A stretch of DNA of 40,248 nt from a virus. A program made the position numbers and the translations under genes. Of this stretch, positions 447 to 6,960 are shown one piece after another (the stretch's first letter is position 1; every line of letters begins with the position of its first letter). Below the pieces are notes generated by a model. The model saw nothing but the letters and a program-made list of their open reading frames with translations. It did not search any database and was not told the origin of the DNA. Location of the stretch: the IMG/VR virus record IMGVR_UViG_3300046009_000507, positions 1 to 40,248 of that record; one strand, written 5' to 3'.

Positions 447-475
447 TTGACAATCCTCTGAGATGCCCTTAAAGT
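447..475 (+). promoter_or_regulatory. Candidate host sigma70 promoter (upstream)
   Basis: TTGACA at 447-452 is a perfect -35 box. With a 17-base spacer, TAAAGT at 470-475 is a fair -10 match (four of six). T7-like phages carry several tandem strong host promoters here for early transcription. This one is less convincing than the one at 643-670. Confidence 0.45.
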
Positions 476-642: not shown

Positions 643-670
643 TTGACAGCAACACGAAACACTGTAAGAT
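643..670 (+). promoter_or_regulatory. Host sigma70 early promoter
   Basis: A perfect -35 TTGACA (643-648) is followed after 16 bases by the -10 TAAGAT (665-670), five of six matches. The expected start is near 677. It faces the early genes and is the best host-type promoter seen in the left end, so it probably drives transcription of the boxA leader and genes 984-8854 down to the terminator at 8863. Confidence 0.7.
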
Positions 671-983: not shown

Positions 984-1238
984 ATGAGCGCCACAACGCA
1001 ACGCCTACAGGCTGAGCTGACTGAGCTTGAGCAACGCATCAAGGTAGCGATCAACGAACACGAGCAGGCTAAGTCCGCCTTTGGTCGCCTTGAGGTTCCT
1101 CCTACGCATCCAATGTGGGCGGTCTTCAGGGATCGTATTGACTCGACTCTGATTCACCAGAGGGTCTTGCAAGCGGTCTGGCATCGCACTAAGGCCACGC
1201 TGCTCGAACAAATGAACGCTGACAAGGAACCGGAATAA
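984..1238 (+). CDS. Early protein of unknown function (84 aa)
   Basis: First gene of the early region. GAAGGA lies about ten bases before the ATG. The 84-residue product is charged, with a helical N-terminal half rich in Glu, Gln and Leu (residues 4-35) that could form a short coiled coil, followed by a more basic segment. No family is recognised. The stop codon overlaps the next start (TAATG), so it is translationally coupled to the 91-residue gene at 1238. T7-like phages place small anti-host proteins here, but nothing in the sequence identifies such a role. Confidence 0.75.
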   Translation: MSATTQRLQAELTELEQRIKVAINEHEQAKSAFGRLEVPPTHPMWAVFRDRIDSTLIHQRVLQAVWHRTKATLLEQMNADKEPE

Positions 1239-1513
1239 TGACCATGCAAGCAATCACGATCACCGCGAAAGGCCCTACCACTCGCTCAGGCTCCCATTGG
1301 GTAGCTCAATGCGCAGCCGGTAAGGTGAAGGTTCCGTATAACCACGAGCTGGACGTGGAAGGGAACGCAATGGAAGCTGGCCGGGCACTCATCAAAAAAC
1401 TCGGATGGGTCTGGGCTGAAGGCTACAAGGGCGCATGGTCGCTCGGTGGCCTGTACACTGGGCAGTACGTGCTGGTCTACCATGAGGTAGGAGACGGCGC
1501 GATCATCGAGTGA
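1238..1513 (+). CDS. Early protein of unknown function (91 aa)
   Basis: Starts at the ATG overlapping the previous stop; a second ATG two codons on (1244) is an equally possible start. The protein is small, with a beta-rich look (alternating hydrophobic residues at 3-9 and 25-33) and a Trp/Gly-rich C-terminal half (residues 55-82). No signal peptide, membrane segment or known motif is seen. It belongs to the host-transcribed early cluster. Function unknown. Confidence 0.75.
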   Translation: MTMQAITITAKGPTTRSGSHWVAQCAAGKVKVPYNHELDVEGNAMEAGRALIKKLGWVWAEGYKGAWSLGGLYTGQYVLVYHEVGDGAIIE

Positions 1514-1522
1514 CCATTCACT

Positions 1523-1550
1523 CAAGGGCGTTCTCTATGAGCGTCCCTTG
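1523..1550 (+). promoter_or_regulatory. Intergenic hairpin
   Basis: CAAGGGCG (1523-1530) pairs with 1542-1550 (CGTCCCTTG) with one bulged T. It lies in the 93-base gap between two early genes and is not followed by a T run. A role as an RNA processing site or stability element is possible. Confidence 0.4.
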
Positions 1551-1606
1551 GGGAAGCAATCACACACCCACACCGTAACGCACCACCAACAAACGAAGGT
1601 AGCACC

Positions 1607-2086
1607 ATGTCCACTAAACAACTGCAATTCATCCTCGCTCGTGCCGCTTGCCTGCTGGTCACCGCGTACACCCAGACCATCACTGAGTACCGCCAGCTCC
1701 TGCCCTTGGATGGTCGCATTGGCAAGGACGCTCCGAATACCTTCGAGGGCCTCAAAGCGGACGCTCGCAATGGGTTCCTGTGCGTCTCCACTGAGCACAA
1801 CCAATCGAGCATCTATGGTGGCTCGGGCAACCTGACTTTCCGTACCTTCCACGACTACGGACACCTGCTGTACAACAAGGCGTTCACTCTGGCCGATGAG
1901 GTTGAACTGGCACGCATCCAGTGGAACGACCTGAAGGTCTACATCCCGACCGAATGGCTTGACGTGTGCAAGTGCGTCTACTTCGCCGACACTGAGCAAC
2001 AATCGCTGTACGAAGCTGAGAACGGTGACTTCCCAACCGACCAAAAGCGCTTCGTTCTGGGCTTCCTGCAAGATCACTTTGCTTAA
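1607..2086 (+). CDS. Early protein with HDxxH motif (159 aa)
   Basis: GAAGGTAG precedes the ATG by a normal distance. The product has a notable block around residues 78-102: FRTFHDYGH followed by an acidic helix containing E98 and E100. H82, D83, H86 and a following Glu are arranged as a possible metal site. Similar F-x-x-x-HD-x-x-H...E blocks occur, as I remember them, in uncharacterised proteins of other phages, but I cannot name a family. No membrane segment. A metal-dependent enzyme or anti-host factor is a guess; expression as an early gene is supported by position. Confidence 0.75.
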   Translation: MSTKQLQFILARAACLLVTAYTQTITEYRQLLPLDGRIGKDAPNTFEGLKADARNGFLCVSTEHNQSSIYGGSGNLTFRTFHDYGHLLYNKAFTLADEVELARIQWNDLKVYIPTEWLDVCKCVYFADTEQQSLYEAENGDFPTDQKRFVLGFLQDHFA

Positions 2087-2116
2087 TCATTAACCTCGCT
2101 GTGATAGGTGTTTTCA

Positions 2117-2659
2117 ATGCAACGCTACAACCGCACCAACTTCGTCTCGGCCCGTGTGGTCACCAACATCCTCGCCGCGATGCAAGCGGTTACCCTCTCG
2201 GGCATCCCTCAGTACATCGAGGATCGCAAGGGTCTCCGCTGGCTCCGTGTGTGCCTCAAGATGGTCGAAGGGCAACCGACCTTTGAGTTCTACGCTCGGA
2301 ACGGGCAGGAAGTCGGGGACGTGATCCTACAGGCATCCTTCGACTGGCACGCCGATGACCTGACCGAGTTCTCTCAGTTGTTGGTCAAAGTTTATACAAT
2401 GACCGAGCTGCCTACCACACCAGCCCGACCAGTGGAACCTAAAGTTTCTCCTGAGCCTGCCGTAAGGCCGCCTGCTGGTCTGCTCTCGTGGCGTATGCCG
2501 TGTGGGGTCACCGTGTACGGCCAGATGCGCCGCAAATGGTTCCGCAAGCGCTTCTACGTGACCCACGATAGGCACGGAATCCAACTTCCGCAAGGCGAGG
2601 GCTACTACCTTGACCTTGAAGCGCAACTCTACGGCACCTTTCAGGGGATGACCGCATGA
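2117..2659 (+). CDS. Early protein of unknown function (180 aa)
   Basis: The ATG at 2117 is chosen because AGGTG (2106-2110) lies six bases before it; the upstream in-frame GTG at 2108 is part of that ribosome binding site. The N-terminal part (1-95) looks globular. A Pro-rich linker follows (about residues 98-120, many P, E and V), then a basic C-terminal domain with RRKWFRKRFYV at about 137-147. No known domain is recognised; the basic patch could bind nucleic acid. The last bases overlap the oxygenase gene start (ATGA). Confidence 0.75.
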   Translation: MQRYNRTNFVSARVVTNILAAMQAVTLSGIPQYIEDRKGLRWLRVCLKMVEGQPTFEFYARNGQEVGDVILQASFDWHADDLTEFSQLLVKVYTMTELPTTPARPVEPKVSPEPAVRPPAGLLSWRMPCGVTVYGQMRRKWFRKRFYVTHDRHGIQLPQGEGYYLDLEAQLYGTFQGMTA

Positions 2660-3360
2660 GCCGGGTTCTCGACAACGCTGTCACGGGCATCGCCTCGGTT
2701 GACAAGTACCACCCGCTGCTCCGCGAGCATCTCCAGTACATCAAGGACATGGCCGAGATCGCCGAAGCACAAGGCCCGATCACGCCTGCCCAGTTCTCTG
2801 AGTCCAGCGGTTTCCAAAAGTTCCTTGACGATTGCGTCATCTGCCATGCACCGGGCGTCTACTCGGTGGCCTACCTGAGTCCTCGCTACTGCGCTGAGAT
2901 TCTCAAGGAAGTCAAGAAGTTCCCTCACACGGTCAACGATGAGGAACCCGAGGAAGCGCAGATACCCGAGGTGGTCTTCCAGAATGAGCACCCGGTTCTG
3001 TTCGAGGTCTTCCGCTCCTTCTGGGCTGACGCTGGCGTGACGCTGGCAAAGGTTCTGCTCGGCCTTGACCCTGTGAACCTGACCACCGTACAGGCCGCTC
3101 AGTACGTCCCTACGGGCATCTCAAGGGGTCACTGGCACATCGACCAAGACTCTGACGTAACGCTCGTGGTGGCCCTCAATGACGACCACAAGGGCGGTGG
3201 CACGATGGTCTATCGAGGCCCTTTCGCAGAACCTGTGGAAGTCCCTCAGAACGAAACGGGCTGGGCGATGCTCTTTTGCGGAAAGACGACCCAGCACTAC
3301 GGCATACCAGTAACTGAAGGCGAGCGCAACCTGCTCGTGCATTGGAGTGAGATCAAGTGA
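2656..3360 (+). CDS. 2-oxoglutarate/Fe(II)-dependent oxygenase
   Basis: The C-terminal half shows the jelly-roll oxygenase signature: an H-x-D pair (H161, D163 in GHWHIDQD), a distal His (H214 in TTQHYG) as third iron ligand, and R224 ten residues later (GERNLLVHW) in the place that binds the 2-oxoglutarate carboxylate. Prolyl-hydroxylase-like proteins keep this H-x-D...H...R spacing. The N-terminal 110 residues are not recognised. The gene overlaps both neighbours by a few bases (ATGA before, TGATG after), so it is part of the early operon. Substrate unknown: a host protein, or phage or host DNA bases, are all open. T7 has no counterpart. Confidence 0.85.
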   Translation: MSRVLDNAVTGIASVDKYHPLLREHLQYIKDMAEIAEAQGPITPAQFSESSGFQKFLDDCVICHAPGVYSVAYLSPRYCAEILKEVKKFPHTVNDEEPEEAQIPEVVFQNEHPVLFEVFRSFWADAGVTLAKVLLGLDPVNLTTVQAAQYVPTGISRGHWHIDQDSDVTLVVALNDDHKGGGTMVYRGPFAEPVEVPQNETGWAMLFCGKTTQHYGIPVTEGERNLLVHWSEIK

Positions 3361-3563
3361 TGCACACGAATTACCAACCGCCTCGCAAGGGCGTGATTGA
3401 CGGCCAGATCATGGCTGCTAAACGTCTCCGTGTCCTGCGCAACGGCCAGAGCCTTGCCGCTATCGGTGACCTGCTCCACGCAACGAAGGTCGAGTTCCAG
3501 CGTAAGCAACTGGCCTACAGCGACCGGGGCGACTTCACCCGCTGCTACCGGGGAGGCTTCTGA
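3360..3563 (+). CDS. Small basic early protein (67 aa)
   Basis: Begins at the ATG overlapping the oxygenase stop (TGATG); a GTG one codon earlier (3357) is an alternative, with GGAG at 3344-3347 as ribosome binding site. The product is strongly basic, with many Arg and Lys throughout and a helical centre, and ends with an Arg/Gly-rich tail. No known domain. Small size, charge and early position would fit a host-protein or nucleic-acid binder, but that is inference. Confidence 0.65.
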   Translation: MHTNYQPPRKGVIDGQIMAAKRLRVLRNGQSLAAIGDLLHATKVEFQRKQLAYSDRGDFTRCYRGGF

Positions 3564-3565
3564 CC

Positions 3566-4174
3566 ATGTGGGTGAGACCATTACGCAAGAAGCCGCGCCC
3601 GGCACCAGAACAAGTCTTCCCCTCTCTGCTCGGAACCCTGCCAATCGTGAACGAACAACTCGACAAGCCAAAAGCCACCGCTCGCCGCATTGACCTGCGC
3701 CGCTACCAGCATCTCCGCGACGGCCACCCGCTGTATGCCGTACAGAACCCTGTGAGCGCCCTCAAGCTGCGCGCATCGTTCACCCAACCTGAGACCTACG
3801 GGCTGTCCAAGTGCGCCACTGTGGAGTTCTCCAAGGGTCTGGGGCCGTGTGGTCGCTGGGTCTCCAAGCTCGGCTATGTGGTCACGGCTGACCTGCTGAC
3901 CATCACCCAGATCAGCTTCGAGATTGACCTCGCAAGCAAGGCCGATGAGTTCCTCTCAGGCGTCCACAAGTTGAACCATGAGGCCCAGCGCATCGAGCAG
4001 CACGGCTATGGGAACGTCATGGCGATGACCCTGAGCCAGCACGACTACGAGCACAAGCTGGTCGCCCTTGAGAACCTCGGCGAGGAATGCAATCAGGCGT
4101 TCAAAGGCCGCGAGATCAAGGAGTTTATCTACAAGATGTCGGACGTTCACGGCAGGATCGAAGTCATCAAGTAA
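3566..4174 (+). CDS. Last gene of early unknown cluster (202 aa)
   Basis: Starts two bases after the previous stop. The N-terminus is basic and Pro-rich (RKKPRPAPE), the middle (60-125) is mixed, and the C-terminal half (about 125-202) is helical with many His, Glu and Lys. No family recognised and no membrane segment. The gene ends nine bases before a consensus phage promoter, so it is the last gene read only from early host promoters. T7 has gene 0.7 (kinase) at this position, but no kinase motifs are visible here. Confidence 0.75.
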   Translation: MWVRPLRKKPRPAPEQVFPSLLGTLPIVNEQLDKPKATARRIDLRRYQHLRDGHPLYAVQNPVSALKLRASFTQPETYGLSKCATVEFSKGLGPCGRWVSKLGYVVTADLLTITQISFEIDLASKADEFLSGVHKLNHEAQRIEQHGYGNVMAMTLSQHDYEHKLVALENLGEECNQAFKGREIKEFIYKMSDVHGRIEVIK

Positions 4175-4302: not shown

Positions 4303-6960
4303 ATGACCATCGCAATTCCTGAGAAACATGACTTCAGCGACATCAACTCATCGGCAGCCTTCGACGCACTCGCTTCGATCTACGGTGAGGCCCTCGCAGC
4401 CGAGCAACTGCAACTCGAACATGAGGCGTACACACTCGGTGAAGAACGGTTCCACAAGGCAATGGAACGTCAGATGGAGCGGGGTGAGTTCTCCAATAGC
4501 CAAGTAGCCAAGCCGCTGCTGGGTCATCTGGTTCCCCTGCTGTCCTCTGCGATCACCGCGTGGATTGACCACCAAGTCACCAAGGTTCGCCGCAAGCATG
4601 TGGCCCTTGGGGCGTTCCAACAGATGAACCCTGAAGTGATGGCATCCATTGTCATCCGTTGGACGATCAACCGGATTGCTCAACGCTCTGGCGCACCGAC
4701 CATCACTGAGATGGCCATTAGCATCGGCTCGGCCCTTGAGGAAGAAGCCCGCTTCGGTCGCATCCGTGTCCTTGAGCAACAGCACTACCAGAAGCACATC
4801 AAGAAGGCACTCGCCCAGCGTAACGGGATGACCTACAAGGTCGCCTACATGGAGAAGGTCGAGCAGCACATGCTGGACGCTGGTCAACTTCAAGAGAACT
4901 GGACGGCGTGGGACTCCACTGGTGCTGATGTCCGCTACCACATGGGCATCCGCATGTTGGAACTGCTCATCGAATCGACCCAGCTCATTGAGGTCGTCCG
5001 TGAGCACAAAGGCATCAAGAAGCTGGACGGTGAGTATGTCTACCTGAAAGCCGAATGGGCCGAGAAGCTCCAGAGCCGGGCCTACATCCTCTCTGGGGTC
5101 TTCCCACGGTATCAGCCTATGGTCGTCCCTCCGAAGCCTTGGAAGGGCACCCACGGTGGCGGCTACTGGGCCAAGGGTCGCAAGCCTGTGACCTTCATTC
5201 GAGTCCCTTCGAGTCGTGCCCTGAAGCGCTACCGCGATGTCCACATGCCGGAAGTCTACAAGGCCGTGAACCTCGCTCAGGCTACTCCGTGGTCGATCAA
5301 CAAGAAGGTCTTGCAGGTGGCCAATGCGGTCATGGGCTGGGCCAACGTGCCAATCAAGGAGTTCCCAACGACCGAACGTGAGGACTTGCCAGTCAAGCCG
5401 CACGACATCGAGACCAATGAGGAAGCCCTCAAGGCATGGAAGAAAGCAGCCGCTGCCGTGTACCGCAAGGACGCCGCTCGGGTCTCTCGTCGATTGTCCT
5501 ATGAGTTCTCCCTTGAGCAGGCCAACAAGTTCGCCGAGTACGAGACCATTTACTTCCCGTACAACCTCGACTGGCGTGGCCGGGTCTATGCGATCCCTGC
5601 GTTCAACCCTCAGTCCAACGACATGACCAAAGGAATCCTTCAGGCAGCCAAAGGCGAGCCGGTAGGCAAGGACGGCATCGAGTGGCTGATGATCCACGGT
5701 GCGAACTGCGCAGGGGTCGATAAGGTTGACTTTGGGCAGCGCAAGCAATGGATCAAGGACAACGAGGAAATGATTCTCCGCTGTGCCTATGACCCTCTGG
5801 TCAATACCGACTGGATGGACATGGACTCGCCCTTCTGCTTCTTGGCGTTCTGCTTCGAGTGGCAAGGCGTGAAGCTCCACGGGGAAGCCCATGTGTCTGC
5901 CCTGCCAATTGCCTTCGACGGTTCTTGCTCGGGCATTCAGCACTTCTCTGCGATGCTCCGTGATGAGCGTGGTGGCCGTGCTGTGAACCTGCTCCCGAGT
6001 GACGACGTACAGGACATCTACAAGCTGGTCTCTGACGAGGTTGAGATTGCCTTGCAGTGGGACTTGAAGTACGGCAGCGAGGATTCCACCGTTGTGGATG
6101 TCGATGAGGAAACCGGCGAGATCACTGAGCGTCGTGTCCTCGGAACAAAAACCCTCGCTATGGCGTGGCTGACCTACGGGATGTCCCGAAAGGTTACCAA
6201 GCGGTCTGTTATGACCCTCGCCTACGGATCGAAAGCCTACGGGTTCGCCGATCAGGTTCGTGAGGACATCGTGAAGAAGGCCATCGACAACGGTGAAGGC
6301 CATATGTTCACCAGCCCCGGAGAAGCCAGCCGCTACATGGCAGGGAAAATCTGGGACTCGGTTAGCGTGGTGGTGGTCGCAGCGGTCGAGGCAATGAACT
6401 GGCTCCAGAAGGCTGCCAAGCTGCTCGCCTCTGAGGTCAAGGACAAGAAGACCAAAGAGATCATCAAGCCTGCGATGCCCGTCTACTGGGTCACTCCTGA
6501 CGGCTTCCCGGTCTGGCAAGAGTACCTCGTTCCTGAGACTCGCCGGATCGACCTGATGTTCCTTGGCGATGTCCGCATCCAAGCGACGGTCAATGTCAAG
6601 TACAGCGACAAGATCGACGCACGAAAACAGGAGTCCGGTATCTCGCCGAACTTCGTCCACTCGCAAGACGGCAGCCACCTCCGCAAGACGGTCGTTCACG
6701 CTGCTGAGAAATACGGAATCGACTTCTTTGCGCTCATCCATGACTCCTTCGGGACGATCCCTGCGAAAGCCGGGGCGATGTTCAAGGCAGTGCGCGAGAC
6801 GATGGTCGAGACCTACGAGAACAACAACGTCCTTGAGGACTTCCGTGAGCAGTTCATGGAGCAGCTCCACGAATCCCAACTGGACAAGATGCCACCGATC
6901 CCTGCGATGGGCACGCTGGACATCCGTGAAATCCTCAAATCCCAATTCGCTTTTGCATAA
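4303..6960 (+). CDS. 1: Phage DNA-directed RNA polymerase
   Basis: Single-subunit T7-family polymerase (885 aa; T7 has 883). Motifs seen: DWRGRVYAIP, palm motif A with catalytic D539 (FDGSCSGIQHF), finger motif B with K633 and Y641 (KRSVMTLAYGS), motif C with D814 (HDSFGT) and the terminal FAFA foot. In the specificity loop, the residue equal to T7 N748 is Asp (D750), as in T3 polymerase, with the residues equal to R746, R756 and Q758 kept. That fits the CC at -11/-10 of this genome's promoters. It transcribes all middle and late genes. The ribosome binding site is poor (GAGACG), so output may be limited at translation. Confidence 0.99.
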   Translation: MTIAIPEKHDFSDINSSAAFDALASIYGEALAAEQLQLEHEAYTLGEERFHKAMERQMERGEFSNSQVAKPLLGHLVPLLSSAITAWIDHQVTKVRRKHVALGAFQQMNPEVMASIVIRWTINRIAQRSGAPTITEMAISIGSALEEEARFGRIRVLEQQHYQKHIKKALAQRNGMTYKVAYMEKVEQHMLDAGQLQENWTAWDSTGADVRYHMGIRMLELLIESTQLIEVVREHKGIKKLDGEYVYLKAEWAEKLQSRAYILSGVFPRYQPMVVPPKPWKGTHGGGYWAKGRKPVTFIRVPSSRALKRYRDVHMPEVYKAVNLAQATPWSINKKVLQVANAVMGWANVPIKEFPTTEREDLPVKPHDIETNEEALKAWKKAAAAVYRKDAARVSRRLSYEFSLEQANKFAEYETIYFPYNLDWRGRVYAIPAFNPQSNDMTKGILQAAKGEPVGKDGIEWLMIHGANCAGVDKVDFGQRKQWIKDNEEMILRCAYDPLVNTDWMDMDSPFCFLAFCFEWQGVKLHGEAHVSALPIAFDGSCSGIQHFSAMLRDERGGRAVNLLPSDDVQDIYKLVSDEVEIALQWDLKYGSEDSTVVDVDEETGEITERRVLGTKTLAMAWLTYGMSRKVTKRSVMTLAYGSKAYGFADQVREDIVKKAIDNGEGHMFTSPGEASRYMAGKIWDSVSVVVVAAVEAMNWLQKAAKLLASEVKDKKTKEIIKPAMPVYWVTPDGFPVWQEYLVPETRRIDLMFLGDVRIQATVNVKYSDKIDARKQESGISPNFVHSQDGSHLRKTVVHAAEKYGIDFFALIHDSFGTIPAKAGAMFKAVRETMVETYENNNVLEDFREQFMEQLHESQLDKMPPIPAMGTLDIREILKSQFAFA

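Follow-up and report, generated by a model that had tools for sequence, protein, structure and literature searches.

The early block and the oxygenase gene

The window, by which we mean the whole viral genome of 40,248 bases analysed here, is essentially identical over its first 12 kb to Pseudomonas phages QAC and FRS, and likewise to phage 17A (Ghunavirus 17A, Studiervirinae) where the sequences align. An early block of seven small genes (984-4174) lies ahead of the phage RNAP gene, and the fifth of these genes encodes the predicted 2-oxoglutarate (2OG)/Fe(II) oxygenase considered here. The relevant features are as follows.

447..475, + strand: host sigma-70-like promoter, TTGACA-17-TAAAGT (consensus match only)
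643..670, + strand: host sigma-70-like promoter, TTGACA-16-TAAGAT (consensus match only)
2117..2659, + strand: upstream gene, PHROG 8679, 180 aa, with an ATGA overlap with the oxygenase gene; homologue of phi15 ORF7
2656..3360, + strand: 2OG/Fe(II) oxygenase gene, PHROG 61, 234 aa
2959..2970, + strand: codons for Q102-I-P-E105, a family signature in the N-terminal half of the predicted catalytic domain (E105 in 51/51 and Q102 in 47/51 aligned rows)
3136..3144, + strand: codons for H161-I162-D163, putative HxD iron ligands within the invariant W160-H-x-D-x-D-S; aligned with LH3 His667/Asp669
3295..3297, + strand: codon for H214, putative distal iron ligand; aligned with LH3 His719
3325..3327, + strand: codon for R224, putative 2-oxoglutarate carboxylate ligand; aligned with LH3 Arg729
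3357..3563, + strand: downstream small open reading frame, PHROG 19243, 68 aa, overlapping the oxygenase stop codon
4184..4202, + strand: phage RNAP promoter, after the early block and before the RNAP gene
4303-6960: phage RNAP gene, 3' of the early block

The oxygenase reading frame is open from the ATG at 2656 to the TGA at 3360, with an AGGGG stretch shortly 5' of its start, and it is a real gene instead of a chance open reading frame, as seen from its relatives in phage records, its match to PHROG 61, and its low dN/dS. The coupling to its neighbours described in the initial annotation is evident on both sides: the ATG overlaps the stop codon of the preceding reading frame as ATGA (2656-2659), and the following gene, whether it starts at GTG 3357 or ATG 3360, overlaps the oxygenase stop. 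Elsewhere in the block, the product of positions 3566-4174, just 5' of the RNAP gene, matches the Pfam family of T3 gene 1.05 (E=2.6e-17), and NCBIfam gave no match among the early genes.

Two TTGACA-type promoters lie 5' of the oxygenase gene, the number of such matches being close to chance expectation. Phage-RNAP promoters, of which 12 were found in the window versus 0 expected, are present on both sides of 984-4174 and nowhere within it. Since phage promoters flank the early block without entering it, and host-type promoters lie 5', the oxygenase gene is likely to be transcribed early by the host RNAP. Its original assignment to the early region agrees with this arrangement and with the position of the RNAP gene after the block.

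Family, fold, and catalytic residues

The protein matches PHROG 61 ("2OG-Fe(II) oxygenase") over residues 1-233 with E=7.7e-54, and an identical protein is encoded by QAC (gp6, annotated hydroxylase), FRS, and 17A. PHROG 61 is a broad profile of 689 positions, in which the window protein represents a Pseudomonas-phage branch carrying an N94/E97/QIPE and WHxDxDS...GGGT signature. Many relatives are annotated as "hydroxylase" or "2OG-Fe(II) oxygenase", and the gene is therefore less new than the initial annotation implied; the bare class label was already known, and it is the affinity to lysyl hydroxylases (LH), the family signature, the domain extent, and the natural losses that are worked out in the present analysis. 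We found no experimental work on this oxygenase family in T7-like Pseudomonas phages in the open-licence literature.

Matches of the window protein to the Pfam families 2OG-FeII_Oxy_3 and OGFOD2-like fall below the Pfam cut-off, and 12-13 of 18 family members match them. When a profile of 18 relatives was compared with the PDB, human LH3 (3e-14) and mimivirus L230 (3e-10) were matched over residues 57-228, and H161, D163, H214, R224, and Y150 aligned with LH3 His667, Asp669, His719, Arg729, and Tyr656, where the LH3 residue numbers were reached by adding an offset of 23, hand-counted from the alignment, to the chain numbering. The roles of these five LH3 residues are given in PMC6082870. An AlphaFold2 prediction built on 51 sequences yielded a confident jelly-roll model (pLDDT 92.3, pTM 0.90), for which the 15 best PDB matches in Foldseek are all LH3 or L230 (E=1.2e-10 and TM 0.67/0.79 for L230), the next being the prolyl hydroxylase PHD2; the best viral match is a megavirus procollagen-lysine dioxygenase. 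Family, profile, and predicted fold thus concur in supporting the earlier assignment to the 2OG/Fe(II) oxygenases, for which a jelly-roll core had been proposed as the structural check. The LH3 alignment together with the fold match further suggests that H161, D163, and H214 cluster at the metal.

Translation of the reading frame places the catalytic residues exactly at H161, D163, H214, and R224, as originally numbered. All four are invariant in 18/18 relatives, nearly all of which were retrieved by plain tblastn, and in 51/51 of a wider set that was partly gathered by patterns containing WHxDxDS or QIPE, so that invariance there is partly due to selection. The iron triad is hence kept in every relative of both sets, homologues lacking it being what the initial annotation had held to count against its proposal. 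Y150 is also invariant among the relatives, and the family is further marked by N94, E97, (Q)I(P)E at 102-105, WHxDxDS at 160-166, and GGGT at 180-183. The N-terminal 110 residues, formerly described as unrecognised and perhaps the specificity part, are divided by these data. Residues 1 to about 55 are indeed without any match and are modelled by AlphaFold2 mostly as helices with good confidence, whereas residues 57-110 align with the lysyl-hydroxylase domain of LH3, hold the invariant N94 and E97 and the QIPE motif, and are modelled at high confidence. Because the latter segment belongs by homology to the catalytic domain, the proposed specificity part is reduced to about 55 residues.

The procollagen lysyl hydroxylases LH1-3 (PLOD), together with the LH domain of L230, are the best PDB matches by both profile and fold, with the Fe ligands, the 2OG arginine, and Tyr656 aligned, although LH3 shares only about 20% identity with the phage enzyme, which, unlike the LH/PLOD enzymes, has no glycosyltransferase domains. 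Two further differences concern functional positions. Cys691, which is conserved among LH enzymes and lies in the 2OG pocket of LH3, is replaced by T183, an invariant threonine in the phage family; and the dimer loop of L230, in which a leucine (Leu873) precedes the last histidine (PMC5802723), is one residue shorter in the phage protein (T211-T212-Q213-H214), where position 212 is variable and the leucine is not kept. Given these two departures, we regard the protein as LH-like and do not file it as a collagen lysyl hydroxylase. A collagen-like phage substrate was also sought and rejected, as the coding strand of the window encodes no run of at least five GXY repeats; a single GXY run of 15 aa is located on its non-coding strand.

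Further members of the same superfamily include the HIF prolyl hydroxylase PHD2, which is the next-best fold (TM 0.42-0.57 compared to 0.64-0.67 for L230), and the Pseudomonas enzyme PPHD; PHD2 is named among the best PDB matches of the phage model and no PPHD structure is, as judged from Foldseek names only. The 2OG-Fe(II) oxygenases of cyanophages are likewise phage-borne, but belong to different phages and hosts and have marginal sequence similarity to the phage enzyme (E 0.02-0.7). A defence association of the oxygenase was considered and rejected, since PADLOC matched it only to a general 2OG model that is classed as CRISPR-associated. The 2OG core of the oxygenase is also matched by PHROG 2297 (E=4.5e-8), whose label reads "DNA endonuclease"; since the match is restricted to that core, the label is probably a misnomer.

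Distribution, selection, and loss

Relatives of the oxygenase are present in 196-206 phage records, 191 of which are named Pseudomonas phages. By comparison, the window RNAP matches 331 Pseudomonas, 702 Klebsiella, and 364 Escherichia phage records, yet no record named for an Escherichia or Klebsiella phage is found among the 206 that match the oxygenase, which bears out the earlier statement that the T7 core set has no such enzyme. Carriage in Pseudomonas T7-type phages is roughly one half, on counts whose thresholds differ and whose records are partly duplicates. Among T7-like phages the gene is seen in the Ghuna-, Pijola-, Pifdeca-, Phut-, and Warsawvirus clades; the podophages Bf7, ErraS, PollyC, and SeaD2 carry the family in their early region, 5' of the primase gene, and it also occurs in Krylovirinae (Bertil, phi-2) and in the 62-kb phage Itty13. 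Three records labelled as Salmonella, Dickeya, and Xanthomonas phages (PQ306468, PP566124, and ON189046) encode the oxygenase at 94-98% protein identity, reflecting either a wide host range or host labels that are worth checking. In phage Bosely (L026, 3400-4218) the reading frame of the oxygenase seems to differ between its N-terminal part and the remainder, and a small piece is annotated as a glycosyltransferase. On a 100-kb contig (L064, 3518-4570) the oxygenase makes up the C-terminal portion of a larger protein (350 aa), the N-terminal portion of which has an acetyltransferase-like appearance, and in Bertil a gene annotated as an acetyltransferase lies two genes 5' of the oxygenase.

Bacterial genomes contain the oxygenase at five places in Pseudomonas and on one metagenome-assembled contig. 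A search of 399 Pseudomonas genomes gave four matches, three of them previously found, all adjoining a T7-like RNAP gene; the fourth adjoins homologues of both the RNAP and the upstream partner. A host chromosomal homologue as the source of the gene was rejected, as none was seen in these 399 genomes apart from the prophage-type loci, and 398 genomes of the phylum gave two weak matches to the 2OG core only. The location of the bacterial matches at prophage-type loci beside RNAP identifies the oxygenase, on sequence grounds, as a phage gene and not a host gene, largely confined to Pseudomonas phages. In the T7-like prophage-type loci (L085, L086, L084, and L093) the oxygenase adjoins the RNAP gene, and at one of them (L085, 1179-8966) an integrase-like gene, the oxygenase gene, and the RNAP gene stand in a row.

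The dN/dS ratio is 0.07 relative to a 95%-identical copy (L001) and 0.08-0.27 in other pairs, values that indicate purifying selection. Nevertheless, judging from the genomes that have lost it, the gene is dispensable. Phage gh-1 has no annotated genes ahead of its RNAP gene and no oxygenase match anywhere in its genome. In phi15, ORF8 (L096, 3472-3888) keeps the first ~99 residues followed by an unrelated tail, so the core is missing; in phTUNSm (L010, 3040-3576) the match ends at GNWH, that is, at the HxD motif, whereas the oxygenase of its sister phage 3MF5, which is 99% identical as far as the break, is intact; and in phiPstE (L097, 1501-2187) the end of the protein, including R224 and the final strand, has been replaced, and a 3' piece is repeated further downstream. 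Selection on intact copies together with repeated loss elsewhere fits a conditional advantage.

Proposed function and its alternatives

Fe(II)/2OG binding and C-H hydroxylation are established chemistry of this superfamily, whose members also include enzymes with nucleic-acid or small-molecule substrates. On balance we favour, by a modest degree of belief, the view that the protein is an active, early-made, LH-like Fe(II)/2OG oxygenase that hydroxylates a protein side chain, most likely on a host protein, to the benefit of the phage on some hosts. In phages that infect aerobic Pseudomonas, host promoters would drive early synthesis of this enzyme, with its double-stranded beta-helix of the LH (PLOD/OGFOD2) type. 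Its Fe(II) would be bound by H161, D163, and H214, and its 2OG by R224 with Y150. Splitting of O2 would then give Fe(IV)=O, which would hydroxylate a C-H bond of the substrate, with succinate and CO2 as products. Kinship with LH gives the fold class rather than the substrate. Because the nearest relatives are protein hydroxylases, we infer that the likeliest substrate is an amino-acid side chain in a protein, perhaps that of lysine or another basic residue. In view of the early timing, of the occurrence of the enzyme in phages whose genomes differ, and of its repeated loss from some of them, the target is most likely a component of host translation, transcription, or defence, whose modification would aid the phage on some hosts only. 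Translation proteins are plausible in this regard, given that Pseudomonas PPHD hydroxylates EF-Tu and E. coli YcfD hydroxylates L16, which also establishes that Pseudomonas proteins are modified by such enzymes (PMC4543633). The narrower proposal, that of a phage-specific protein (possibly lysyl) hydroxylase which, during the opening minutes of infection, modifies a host protein involved in translation, transcription, or defence, is tentative, and we would put it at clearly less than even chances.

If a host protein is indeed modified, the chemistries of phage takeover, which include phosphorylation and ADP-ribosylation, would gain protein hydroxylation as a further member, one without T7-like-phage precedent in the literature examined and limited to aerobic hosts because O2 is needed. 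The naturally broken copies in sister phages are ready comparisons, and the enzyme class is tractable, since generic 2OG assays, known inhibitors, and mass shifts of +16 Da make the substrate directly findable.

The target could instead be a phage protein, such as the operon partner (2117-2659) or a virion protein, although we think this rather improbable. Support for the idea is provided by the partner gene, which overlaps the oxygenase gene by ATGA and adjoins it in 25 of 50 relatives checked, and whose product is homologous (profile E about 1e-48) to phi15 ORF7, annotated as a virion structural protein; two early products are reported in purified particles in the phi15 paper. Co-conservation, however, extends to only part of the Studiervirinae, and a universal partner was rejected because the upstream protein is unrelated in the Warsawvirus, Krylovirinae, Bf7-like, and Itty13-like phages, all of which have the oxygenase without this partner; moreover, phi15 keeps the partner though its oxygenase is broken. 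The partner model itself is moderate (pLDDT 83, pTM 0.56), and a fold search with it against the PDB gave no significant match.

An auxiliary metabolic role, involving a small-molecule substrate or a shift in 2OG/succinate, has been argued for cyanophage 2OG oxygenases (PMC3037559), and PHROG 61 is itself categorised under "moron, auxiliary metabolic gene and host takeover". For the window protein such a role is of similarly low probability: the structures nearest to it are those of enzymes that hydroxylate proteins, its kinship with the cyanophage enzymes is remote, and nothing about expression in the earliest block requires a metabolic supply.

Oxidation of DNA bases or nucleotides, whether as anti-restriction modification or as repair, is more doubtful still. 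TET/JBP and AlkB are 2OG oxygenases with nucleic-acid substrates, T7-like phages carry early anti-restriction proteins, and there is the weak match to PHROG 2297 with its "DNA endonuclease" name; but neither the names of the 50 best PDB matches nor the Pfam results include TET/JBP or AlkB. In addition, phage Pf-10 carries an intact oxygenase copy, and its DNA is cut by ordinary restriction enzymes; the published account of HindIII, AfeI, and NdeI digestion places the departures from the predicted pattern in the terminal fragments (PMC8779105). Of the DNA-base modification suggested in the initial annotation, the bulk form is thus disfavoured, while a rare modification is compatible with the digests as described.

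We give very little credence to a catalytically idle protein that works through binding, which, like a metabolic role, would make the finding ordinary: the broken copies in phi15 and phTUNSm do retain the N-terminal half, but even very distant members have the four catalytic residues unchanged, arguing for catalysis in the intact family.
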